From an uncultured Bacilli bacterium (GTDB lineage Bacteria; Bacillota_I; Bacilli_A; RF39; UBA660), in contig CANRCV010000007.1 of assembly GCA_947629205.1 (NCBI GenBank), positions 1 through 42,859 of the forward strand: 42,859 nt of DNA. Direction: 5' to 3'. The notes beneath the pieces were generated by a model. The model was not told the DNA's origin. It saw only the letters and a list, made by a program, of their open reading frames with translations, and made no database searches. Made by a program: the position numbers and the translations under genes. This document shows positions 40,230 to 42,859 of this stretch, in pieces; within the stretch, counting starts at the first letter, position 1, and each line of letters begins with the position of its first letter.

Positions 40230-41078
40230 TTATAATTTTTTTATTACTATTACGGGAATTATTACCTTAACAATTTCTTCAATACTTTTCATTATTTCTT
40301 CAAATACAATGTTACTTGCATAATTATATTTTTTTCTATAAGAATCCCAACGATTTTTAATAATTTCACTATTTTTTAATATGGTAATCGTTTCTTCAAT
40401 ATTTCCATCATATTTTCTATTAGAAAACGTTTTCGTTATTGCCTTACGTAAATCTAGAATATTAACATCTTTCCATCCTTTAGTATATATTAAAAATAAA
40501 TCATAGTAATCTCTAATTCTACTATTAGCTTCAGCTCTTCTTAAAATTGTTTCTAACTTTTCTGCTATTATAGTTTCTAAATTATATGACCATACATTTA
40601 TATGATTATCACCTAATATTGGAAGATATTTATATACTATTGGTTGTGGCGTAATAGGATCACCTGTAGCTATATCAATCTGTAAGTTTTCTCTAATTGT
40701 ATCAACTTTAACATTTAGCACAACTCTAAATCCTCCATATTGATCTTCTTCACGTATATTACCAATTTCTACAAAACTTATTACAGCACCATCACAAATA
40801 TCTATTGCAATAATTGATTGAATCATTTCTTCAACATTTTCTTTAGTAAAATTAGCATCTTTAATTGCAGTATCTATATCTTTTGTTGAACGACTTTCTA
40901 CTCCAAATAAAGTGCTTAAATAAAAACCACCTTTTAAAATGAAATTATCTCGATATTTGCTTACTGCTAATCTTTCTATAAATCTATCATACATATATAA
41001 ACGAAGTAATGTATTAAAATCTAAATTTCTTTTTACTGCTATATTTTTTAATTTATCTTTTATTTGCATACTATTCAT
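40230..41078 (-). CDS. abiEii: Type IV TA toxin AbiEii (nucleotidyltransferase)
   Basis: This 282-aa toxin of the DNA polymerase-beta-like nucleotidyltransferase superfamily carries FILKGGFYLSTLFG (motif I, ~residue 46), SRSTKDIDTAI (motif II, catalytic Asp pair, ~62-72), LQIDIATGDPITP (motif III, ~135) and ETIIAEKLETILRRAEANSR followed by RDYYDL (motif IV, ~170-195). Related AbiEii/MenT toxins bind GTP or modify tRNA and cause reversible growth arrest, stopping phage spread. It follows abiEi with an 8-bp overlap, so the pair is translationally coupled. The antitoxin does not bind the toxin in this type; it represses or opposes it. Confidence 0.92.
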   Translation of the reverse strand: MNSMQIKDKLKNIAVKRNLDFNTLLRLYMYDRFIERLAVSKYRDNFILKGGFYLSTLFGVESRSTKDIDTAIKDANFTKENVEEMIQSIIAIDICDGAVISFVEIGNIREEDQYGGFRVVLNVKVDTIRENLQIDIATGDPITPQPIVYKYLPILGDNHINVWSYNLETIIAEKLETILRRAEANSRIRDYYDLFLIYTKGWKDVNILDLRKAITKTFSNRKYDGNIEETITILKNSEIIKNRWDSYRKKYNYASNIVFEEIMKSIEEIVKVIIPVIVIKKL

Positions 41079-41697
41079 ACATCATCGTCACAAAATCCAT
41101 AACTTCTTCTTTTATGCCAAAAATATCAGCATACTTTGAAAGTTTAATTAGATCATTGTCCTTTCTTTTAAGATATTCTTTAACTGCATATTTTACATGT
41201 TCCAAATCCATTCTTTTTTTTGAACGAATTATATCACAAATACACCTTTCCATATCATAAGCTTTCACTTTATTTCCTTGTGGTGTTTCAATCATAATTA
41301 TTCCTACTTCATAATACTTGTCATCAACATAAAAAACATTATGTTTTTTTAGTTTTGGGTTATTATATTTTTTTGTAACAGTTATATCAAAAGAACTATC
41401 TGGTGTTTTAATTGAAAGATTATGAAAATAAAGTGCAGTCATATGTGAATAAATTATCTTCGGTGTACTAATGCTAAGTACATAATATACATCTTCGATT
41501 TTTGATATATCTATATATACACCTTTAGCAACTTTTTCTATCATATTTTTCTTTTTCATAATTGTTAAATAATTTCTATTTATATTAAAAATTTTAAGGT
41601 CATTTACTGTAATATAACCATTATTTTTTTCCATAAGTTTTTGAATAATTTCAATATTACTTTCATTGATAAATTCTTCTTTTGTCATATGATCCAT
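41071..41697 (-). CDS. abiEi: Type IV TA antitoxin/repressor AbiEi
   Basis: This 208-aa antitoxin has an N-terminal winged helix (YITVNDLKIFNINRNYLTIM then KKKNMIEKVAKGVY, residues ~25-62). The AbiEi core follows, PKIIYSHMTALYFHNLSIKT (~78-97), then the typical KHNVFYVDD...VGIIMIETPQGNKVKAYDME (~118-150). Known AbiEi proteins bind inverted repeats in their own promoter and repress the operon, which fits the perfect 14-bp repeat just upstream. The frame opens at 41721, but ATG 41697 (MDHMTKEEF) has GGTGAT 3 nt before it and agrees with the predicted message start. Confidence 0.92.
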   Translation of the reverse strand: MDHMTKEEFINESNIEIIQKLMEKNNGYITVNDLKIFNINRNYLTIMKKKNMIEKVAKGVYIDISKIEDVYYVLSISTPKIIYSHMTALYFHNLSIKTPDSSFDITVTKKYNNPKLKKHNVFYVDDKYYEVGIIMIETPQGNKVKAYDMERCICDIIRSKKRMDLEHVKYAVKEYLKRKDNDLIKLSKYADIFGIKEEVMDFVTMMYE

Positions 41698-41714
41698 ACT
41701 ATCACCACATTGTT

Positions 41715-41752
41715 CATTCATACGGATATTATATTATTTATCCGTATGAATG
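41715..41752. promoter_or_regulatory. AbiEi operator: perfect 14-bp inverted repeat
   Basis: CATTCATACGGATA (41715-41728) and TATCCGTATGAATG (41739-41752) are exact reverse complements with a 10-bp centre. The repeat overlaps the -10 and reaches the -35 of abiE, so a bound AbiEi dimer would block RNA polymerase. Confidence 0.85.
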
Positions 41753-41756
41753 TCAA
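41728..41756 (-). promoter_or_regulatory. Consensus promoter of abiEi-abiEii
   Basis: On the minus strand TTGACA (41756-41751), exactly 17 bp and TATAAT (41733-41728). This is the best promoter in the window and fits a locus kept off by repression. The start is expected near 41721. Confidence 0.85.
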
Positions 41757-41843
41757 TATTGTTTTTGAGCCAGTTTTTTCTCTTTCTTCAGGTGATTTGT
41801 TTTTTTTTACTTTTAGTAGTTGTTATATTATTCATTTTAAAAT

Positions 41844-41917
41844 AAAAAAGCACCAACCTGTTAAAGGTATAGTGCAAACGAAATCGTGAGTGCTATTTAA
41901 TTTGGTAGCACTTACAT
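41844..41917 (-). ncRNA. Small two-hairpin RNA between the two AbiE operators
   Basis: On the minus strand overlapping TATAAT elements (41932-41922) precede a ~74-nt segment. It has a hairpin AGTGCTA/TAGCACT (41912-41889, 10-nt loop), then a terminator hairpin GCAC-ACCT/AGGT-GTGC (41875-41850) followed by T6. No reading frame fits it. It could be a free small RNA or an insulating terminator that protects abiE from upstream transcription. No -35 is clear. Confidence 0.55.
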
Positions 41918-41934
41918 TTTGATTATATTATAGT

Positions 41935-42009
41935 TTATATATTTTTTCCAGAAAAATAAACCTTTAATCTTCTGCTTCTCCTTTTTTCACTAATTGTCAT
42001 ATAATTCAT
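41935..42009 (-). pseudogene. Remnant of a second abiEi start (24 codons)
   Basis: From ATG 42009 the frame reads MNYMTISEKRRSRRLKVYFS and stops at 41935. Leader and first codons match the intact abiEi copy almost base for base (ATGAACAATG..GATGATAGTATG and ATATGACA), then similarity ends. This is what is left of a duplicated abiE locus. Confidence 0.7.
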
Positions 42010-42026
42010 ACTATCATCTCATTGTT

Positions 42027-42064
42027 CAATCATACGGATAATATGCTATTTATCCGTATGATTG
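42027..42064. promoter_or_regulatory. Second AbiEi-type operator, promoter decayed
   Basis: CAATCATACGGATA (42027-42040) and TATCCGTATGATTG (42051-42064) form another perfect 14-bp inverted repeat with a 10-bp centre. It differs from the first at one position, changed symmetrically in both arms. The -35 is TTTACA, and the -10 at 17 bp reads CATATT, so promoter strength is mostly lost while the operator stays perfect. Confidence 0.8.
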
Positions 42065-42089
42065 TAAATGCCCTTTATTTTTATTTTCA

Positions 42090-42859
42090 TTATGGTGTTA
42101 AGACAATACGGAAAGAAATATGTGTAGCACCTCCACCATCACGACGACCACCGAAATTAAATATTCCACAAATAGTTCCATCGCTCATATTACCACTTCG
42201 TTCAAACCAAGGAGCAGTAGAATAACCAAACGCAGAATCATCATCATGCCAAGAACTTATAGTTCTTGTTTGAGTACCATATTTTTTTCTTACAAAAGGT
42301 CCCATTTCTCCAGTTGCATCACCAAGTATTCTATAACTGTAATTTGTTTGACTTGTACTATAATTATAAACATCATAATACTTTTTATTGCTTTCTAGAT
42401 TATCAAATGGAAAACCACCAGTACTAAATCCACTTTGAACAAACAAATATCCACTATTACTTGCATCCTTCATTACTCCCATGACATATTCCAATGCTCC
42501 ACCACTCATATCATATATGCCTGTATAATTTCCTGTTGTACTAGCAACTGTACTTAAAGAATTTTTATAATTAAAAGTCACATCCCCATCTGCTCCTAAT
42601 TGATTTGGATATTCACGTTCATTACAAGCATTTGGGTGGTCTGTACAAGATTCATTTGTTCCAGTATACCCAGTAGTAGGTTCATTTTTAGCTGCATATC
42701 CAGTCATATAATTACCATTATTGTTGAGTCTTACACTTTGTTCGCTACCATACTTACTATGTTGTAGATAAGCAACTGCACCCCACTCAGTATTCTTCAT
42801 CATATGACTATCTAAGTCTCTTTGATATTTATAACTTGCATCAAAGGCATTTCCAATTG
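42090..42859 (-). CDS. Surface protein with C-type-lectin-like domain (5' end outside window)
   Basis: The frame is open to the window edge, so only the C-terminal ~255 residues are seen. It matches the protein at 28625: GNAFDASYKYQRDLDSHMMK, NTEWGAVAYLQHSKYG, YTGIYDMSGGALEYVM, RILGDATGEMGPF and final FRIVLTP. An inserted Cys loop (ESCTDHPNACNER) is specific to this copy. In the last 50 residues the differing positions are mostly NNT codons: CAT GAT GAT GAT in SWHDDD, and GGT GGT CGT CGT GAT GGT in GGRRDG. Adenine-targeted mutagenesis of AAT/AGT codons would produce such a pattern. Function: probably ligand binding at the cell surface (inference). Confidence 0.7.
   Translation of the reverse strand, partial: IGNAFDASYKYQRDLDSHMMKNTEWGAVAYLQHSKYGSEQSVRLNNNGNYMTGYAAKNEPTTGYTGTNESCTDHPNACNEREYPNQLGADGDVTFNYKNSLSTVASTTGNYTGIYDMSGGALEYVMGVMKDASNSGYLFVQSGFSTGGFPFDNLESNKKYYDVYNYSTSQTNYSYRILGDATGEMGPFVRKKYGTQTRTISSWHDDDSAFGYSTAPWFERSGNMSDGTICGIFNFGGRRDGGGATHISFRIVLTP

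Follow-up and report, generated by a model that had tools for sequence, protein, structure and literature searches.

In the window (the whole stretch of DNA that was analysed, 42,859 nucleotides), a live abiE operon is preceded by its own operator (site 1) and, further upstream, by a second AbiEi-type operator without a gene (site 2). In our view, with a probability of about 0.6, site 2 is what remains of a second abiE unit. Many relatives carry similar gene-less sites, and site 2 is therefore most likely a remnant and not a special regulatory device. An operator may be flawless without being used, and this corrects a tempting over-reading.

The live abiE operon and site 1

On sequence grounds, site 1 (41715–41752, minus strand) serves a live type IV abiE operon as its operator. 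The operon is encoded on the minus strand and consists of the antitoxin and repressor gene abiEi (41071–41697; ATG at 41697, ribosome-binding site GGTGAT) and, downstream and overlapping by 8 bp, the nucleotidyltransferase toxin gene abiEii (40230–41078). AbiEi was assigned by Pfam, PADLOC and alignment. The PADLOC AbiEi model matched residues 14–207 with 5.8e-55, and Pfam AbiEi_4 scored 22.7 bits, slightly under its cut-off. AbiEii was matched by PF08843 (Pfam, 1.2e-37) and by PADLOC AbiEii (1.6e-94). The site-1 operon comprises an AbiEi antitoxin of the kind defined by an N-terminal winged helix and a C-terminal domain, a downstream AbiEii nucleotidyltransferase-like toxin in the same operon, and inverted repeats over the -35 and -10 of the operon promoter. 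In AbiE type IV systems, repression results from AbiEi binding to the repeats; the AbiEii toxin, which is bacteriostatic, is countered by AbiEi.

The arms of site 1 are perfect over 14 bp and enclose a centre of 10 bp. Promoter 1 within it (TTGACA-17-TATAAT, 41728–41756, minus strand) matches the consensus at 12/12 positions. AbiEi would bind both arms and cover the promoter between them, resulting in autoregulation of abiE. For comparison, AbiEi relatives were drawn from 386 family genomes. Nearly all of the closer ones share a fixed arm spacing with the -35 in the outer left arm and the -10 in the centre, and the arms of live operators covary (CATAC..GTATG, GATAC..GTATC, GGTAC..GTACC). More distant AbiEi genes are preceded by other arm sequences in a similar layout. 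With AbiEi and AbiEii confirmed and the same architecture before abiEi in dozens of relatives, the original prediction of AbiEi-type operators is supported.

Site 2 and the DNA between the sites

Site 2 (42027–42064, minus strand) lies upstream of the live operon and retains an intact palindrome (perfect arms of 15 bp around an 8-bp centre), equivalent to 14 and 10 bp in register with site 1. Its arms differ from those of site 1 by one base pair changed symmetrically (CATTC..GAATG in site 1, CAATC..GATTG in site 2), and the two sites are 312 bp apart. The predicted geometry was thus recovered in full: 14-bp perfect inverted repeats with 10-bp centres, a single symmetric base change, a distance of about 300 bp and a flawless second operator. 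In the own genome (~1.05 Mb), a search allowing up to 3 mismatches returned these two sites only and the reversed control none; the paired sites are far beyond chance. Site 2 is embedded in a 76-bp direct repeat (41994–42069, minus strand) of operator, leader and first ~5 codons, which is 87% identical to its partner at 41682–41757.

Remnant promoter 2 (TTTACA-17-CATATT, 42040–42068, minus strand) keeps the 17-bp spacing of site 1, with 5/6 matches in the -35 and 4/6 in the -10. It had been called dead; damage was indeed found, but with CATATT and an overall match of 9/12 "weakened" is the safer term. Likewise, the gene behind it had been described as cut to 24 codons. Gene loss and a 24-codon relic ORF (41935–42009, minus strand) were both found, but the abiEi match is limited to the first ~5 codons and the rest of the ORF is an unrelated repeat element. 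The site 2 unit therefore possesses an operator palindrome of the same class, lacks downstream abiEi and abiEii coding sequence, and is regarded as a remnant, not as a member of the abiE systems.

The leader (14/16) and first codons (13/15) of site 2 are closest to those of site 1. The arm allele of site 2 was also seen in genome G102, where it belongs to a live operator. Descent from a G102-type lineage was considered and rejected: the arm allele fits, but leader and codons are nearer to site 1. Site 2 was also rejected as a terminator, as no T run follows it and only a separate hairpin (41886–41915) was flagged. Rfam searches over both sites and the RNA-like element gave sub-threshold chance matches only.

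As a remnant, site 2 would be what is left of the control region of another abiE unit, either a partial duplicate of the first or its sister copy, which would have lost its coding part after ~5 codons. The -10 of site 2 has been damaged, including a T to C change of its first base as in three other relics (see below), and the arms have stayed. AbiEi binding at site 2 is probably still possible, and the site would act at most as a minor extra one. Early silencing of the consensus promoter may have been a safe way to switch off a toxin-antitoxin pair, or an unrepressed strong promoter may have been costly.

A dispersed repeat, composed of an antisense-RNA-like gene and a small ORF for a hydrophobic peptide, is located in the DNA between the sites. 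The short RNA (41843–41950, minus strand) has a promoter (TGGAAA-17-TATAAT), two hairpins, the second of which is a terminator, and a fold z-score of -3.5. It is convergent with a 31-aa ORF (MSILFLSQFFLFLQVICFFLLLVVVILFILK; 41750–41845, plus strand). This ORF starts inside site 1; its usual 5' end therefore seems to have been replaced, and the window copy looks 5'-truncated. Further matches in the own genome lie at C2 (two), C35, C31, C9, C5, C1 and C26. In other copies, the two-hairpin short RNA is convergent with a conserved ~30-residue hydrophobic peptide of the M(T/K)KESLH..LLVVIVMLFVIILRLT type. From its sequence, the repeat looks like a type I toxin-antitoxin module. Element copies were noted at window positions 41750–41956 and in L033, L036–L039, L042, L043, L047, L049 and L050 (peptide e.g. 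MTKESLHVLVVFLLVVIVMLFVIILRLT). Genomes of the genus contain several copies each, and the window copy has no Rfam match. A multi-copy gene family with products ending in FRIVLTP or FRIVLAP and no Pfam match was seen in the window (42090–42857), L033 and L048; in G009, the type-I-like element comes a few bases after the end of such a gene. Within the genus, rnc loci vary in their upstream region, which often opens with a yidD-like gene, and none of the other 19 rnc loci carries the operator.

Gene-less operators and promoter decay in relatives

Pattern searches with the two close operator types yielded 30 sites before abiEi and 37 candidates without abiEi, the latter including window site 2 and the G017 site, which were known from separate searches. 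Reversed controls of both searches gave few or no matches. Among the 37, the G201 site proved on inspection to be that of a live AbiEi unit with a long N-terminus, truncated by the end of its contig, the G081 site is the only clearly intact one before another gene, and a few may be chance matches. All 30 live promoters had a -10 matching at least 5/6 positions and starting with T. The mean -10 match of the gene-less sites was 3.7/6 (n = 37; Mann-Whitney p 3e-10 against live promoters). Because the searches needed nearly intact arms, strongly decayed relics are invisible to them, and this contrast between arms and promoters is partly a selection effect. Gene-less operators occurred mostly in genomes in which no cognate AbiEi was found. 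No description of gene-less AbiEi-type operators was found in the open-access literature.

Some matches were set aside. These were 29 viral-contig matches to the site-1/site-2 pattern, regarded as chance since none showed the outer arms that are conserved or was accompanied by a convincing abiEi gene, and a match in G226 (L057) with different spacing and without abiE. The second operator type had no match in viral contigs. In G081 (L174:2519–2600), an intact abiE-type promoter-operator stands directly before an fmt-like gene (methionyl-tRNA formyltransferase), as if it had been captured as the promoter of that gene. Paired tandem AbiEi-type palindromes with a shared or nearly shared outer arm and no abiE gene nearby were observed in L186:2563–2660 and L173.

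Five relics combine a broken -10 with intact arms: site 2 and those in G225, G314, G017 and G033. Four of the five retain abiEi start stubs of 5–34 codons, and in four of the five, site 2 included, the first -10 base is changed from T to C. The G225 relic has perfect arms, ~32 to 34 abiEi codons and the -10 CAAAAT. In G314, the relic (6-codon stub, -10 CAAAAT) has a live abiE operator of the other type downstream, at a centre-to-centre distance of 126 bp. The relic in G017, from the same genus, has ~5 codons and the -10 GAAAAC and is located behind a recO-like gene; that in G033 has no codons and the -10 CAAAAT. By comparison of their sequences, the four are parallel relics that form a decay series. 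In this series of type IV toxin-antitoxin remnants, loss of the -10 seems to precede loss of the operator, which suggests how addictive pairs of this kind are retired safely.

G126, G069 and their kin have a decayed operator of a third class (a C-type relic) close before the live A-type operator. Relic operators next to live abiE are thus recurrent, yet not of the same specificity.

Alternative explanations and known systems

Three observations count against the remnant reading: constraint on the arms, the selection effect of the searches, and the -10 of site 2, which still matches at 4/6 positions. The two copies differ at 8/48 positions outside the arms and, inside them, at one complementary pair in 28. 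If the arms mutated freely at the outside rate, that exact outcome would have a probability of ~0.001, which indicates constraint (or template-switch correction) on the arms at some time since the copies parted. The constraint is dated no more finely than that, and periods before or after gene loss both fit.

Of the alternatives, one would make site 2 part of a functional class: gene-less AbiEi-type operators would serve integrase-linked elements and be bound by AbiEi or a related protein. We regard this as unlikely for site 2. The class itself is suggested by a palindrome with a non-promoter centre between an integrase-end-like remnant (named from its sequence alone) and cargo at 8 Fic and 8 DUF7695 loci. 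Arm likeness at these loci is 0.87–0.89, compared with 0.74–0.78 for the centre and 0.56–0.67 for the left flank, and the Fic set contains two compensatory arm changes versus a few one-sided ones. The sequence sets are small, however (eight each), and G089 carries a live abiE ~120 bp behind the same remnant, so that the sites may also be abiE scars. For site 2 in particular, the window genome (G000) gave no match to the integrase-end-like remnant, and abiEi start codons are present at site 2 but absent from the element sites. Several Fic loci match from the Fic promoter onward only and have no palindrome. The remnant (GGTACA..) was noted at Fic loci L166, L168, L181–L183 and L187 and at DUF7695 loci L069–L075 and L191, and a recG-like gene adjoins the Fic and DUF7695 element palindromes in several genomes.

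The element palindromes may be abiE scars in a shared cargo slot, or may be in use; the compensatory arm changes keep a use for gene-less operators conceivable. In its widest form, the proposal would be that promoter-silenced solo AbiEi operators are widespread in this gut Bacilli family and about as numerous as live promoters, that the remnant-linked ones are selected without abiE genes, that AbiEi-type binding serves element life or cargo exchange, and that site 2 is a chromosomal example. We hold this extended proposal to be doubtful. If element-borne solo operators turn out to be constrained, that would hint at an unrecognised role of AbiEi-type sites in mobile elements. This wider class of gene-less operators is the more interesting lead.

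Looping or titration was the use that the original prediction saw suggested by retention of the operator: site 2 would be a working auxiliary site, with AbiEi at both sites looping the DNA or being titrated and so tuning abiE. The two intact palindromes, their symmetric difference, the use of the site 2 arm allele in the live G102 operator and the multiple operators of the related Rv2827c system (PMC7319586) are in agreement with it. But operators without a gene are widespread, mostly in genomes for which no cognate AbiEi was detected. The double site whose conservation had been looked to is absent from the genus, and in related Bacilli none of the 32 other live abiE loci (24 + 8) has a second site of the same type in the DNA retrieved. 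Neighbouring relic and live operators elsewhere differ in specificity class, which argues against cooperative binding, as a single AbiEi would probably not bind both. At 29.7 helical turns, the spacing is neither clearly in nor out of phase, and AbiEi is reported as two monomers on the repeats of one promoter, with no distant action described (PMC7319586). An auxiliary operator is accordingly unsupported and quite unlikely. Least probable is that the palindrome was kept perfect by a mutational process and not by use, namely quasi-palindrome template switching between the arms, described as established in E. coli (PMC7202029): it would yield a symmetric change like that between sites 1 and 2, but uncorrected one-sided arm changes in element sites L167 and L188 indicate that correction is inefficient.

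The locus can be compared with two known systems. The AbiE system of S. agalactiae, in the available text of PMC3985639, is likewise a bicistronic abiEi-abiEii operon with the -35 in IR1 and the -10 (there TAAAAT) between the outer repeat cores. The operator extends over ~49 bp there and ~46 bp here, and the repeat sequences are TGTTGCTTTTA there and TTGACATTCATACGGATA here; unlike here, that text describes no gene-less second operator. Rv2827c-Rv2826c of Mycobacterium tuberculosis (PMC7319586) resembles the present locus in having an AbiEi-family repressor and more than one inverted-repeat pair upstream. Its two pairs are 4 bp apart and serve one promoter, whereas the sites described here are separated by 312 bp and the second has its own damaged promoter and gene stub.
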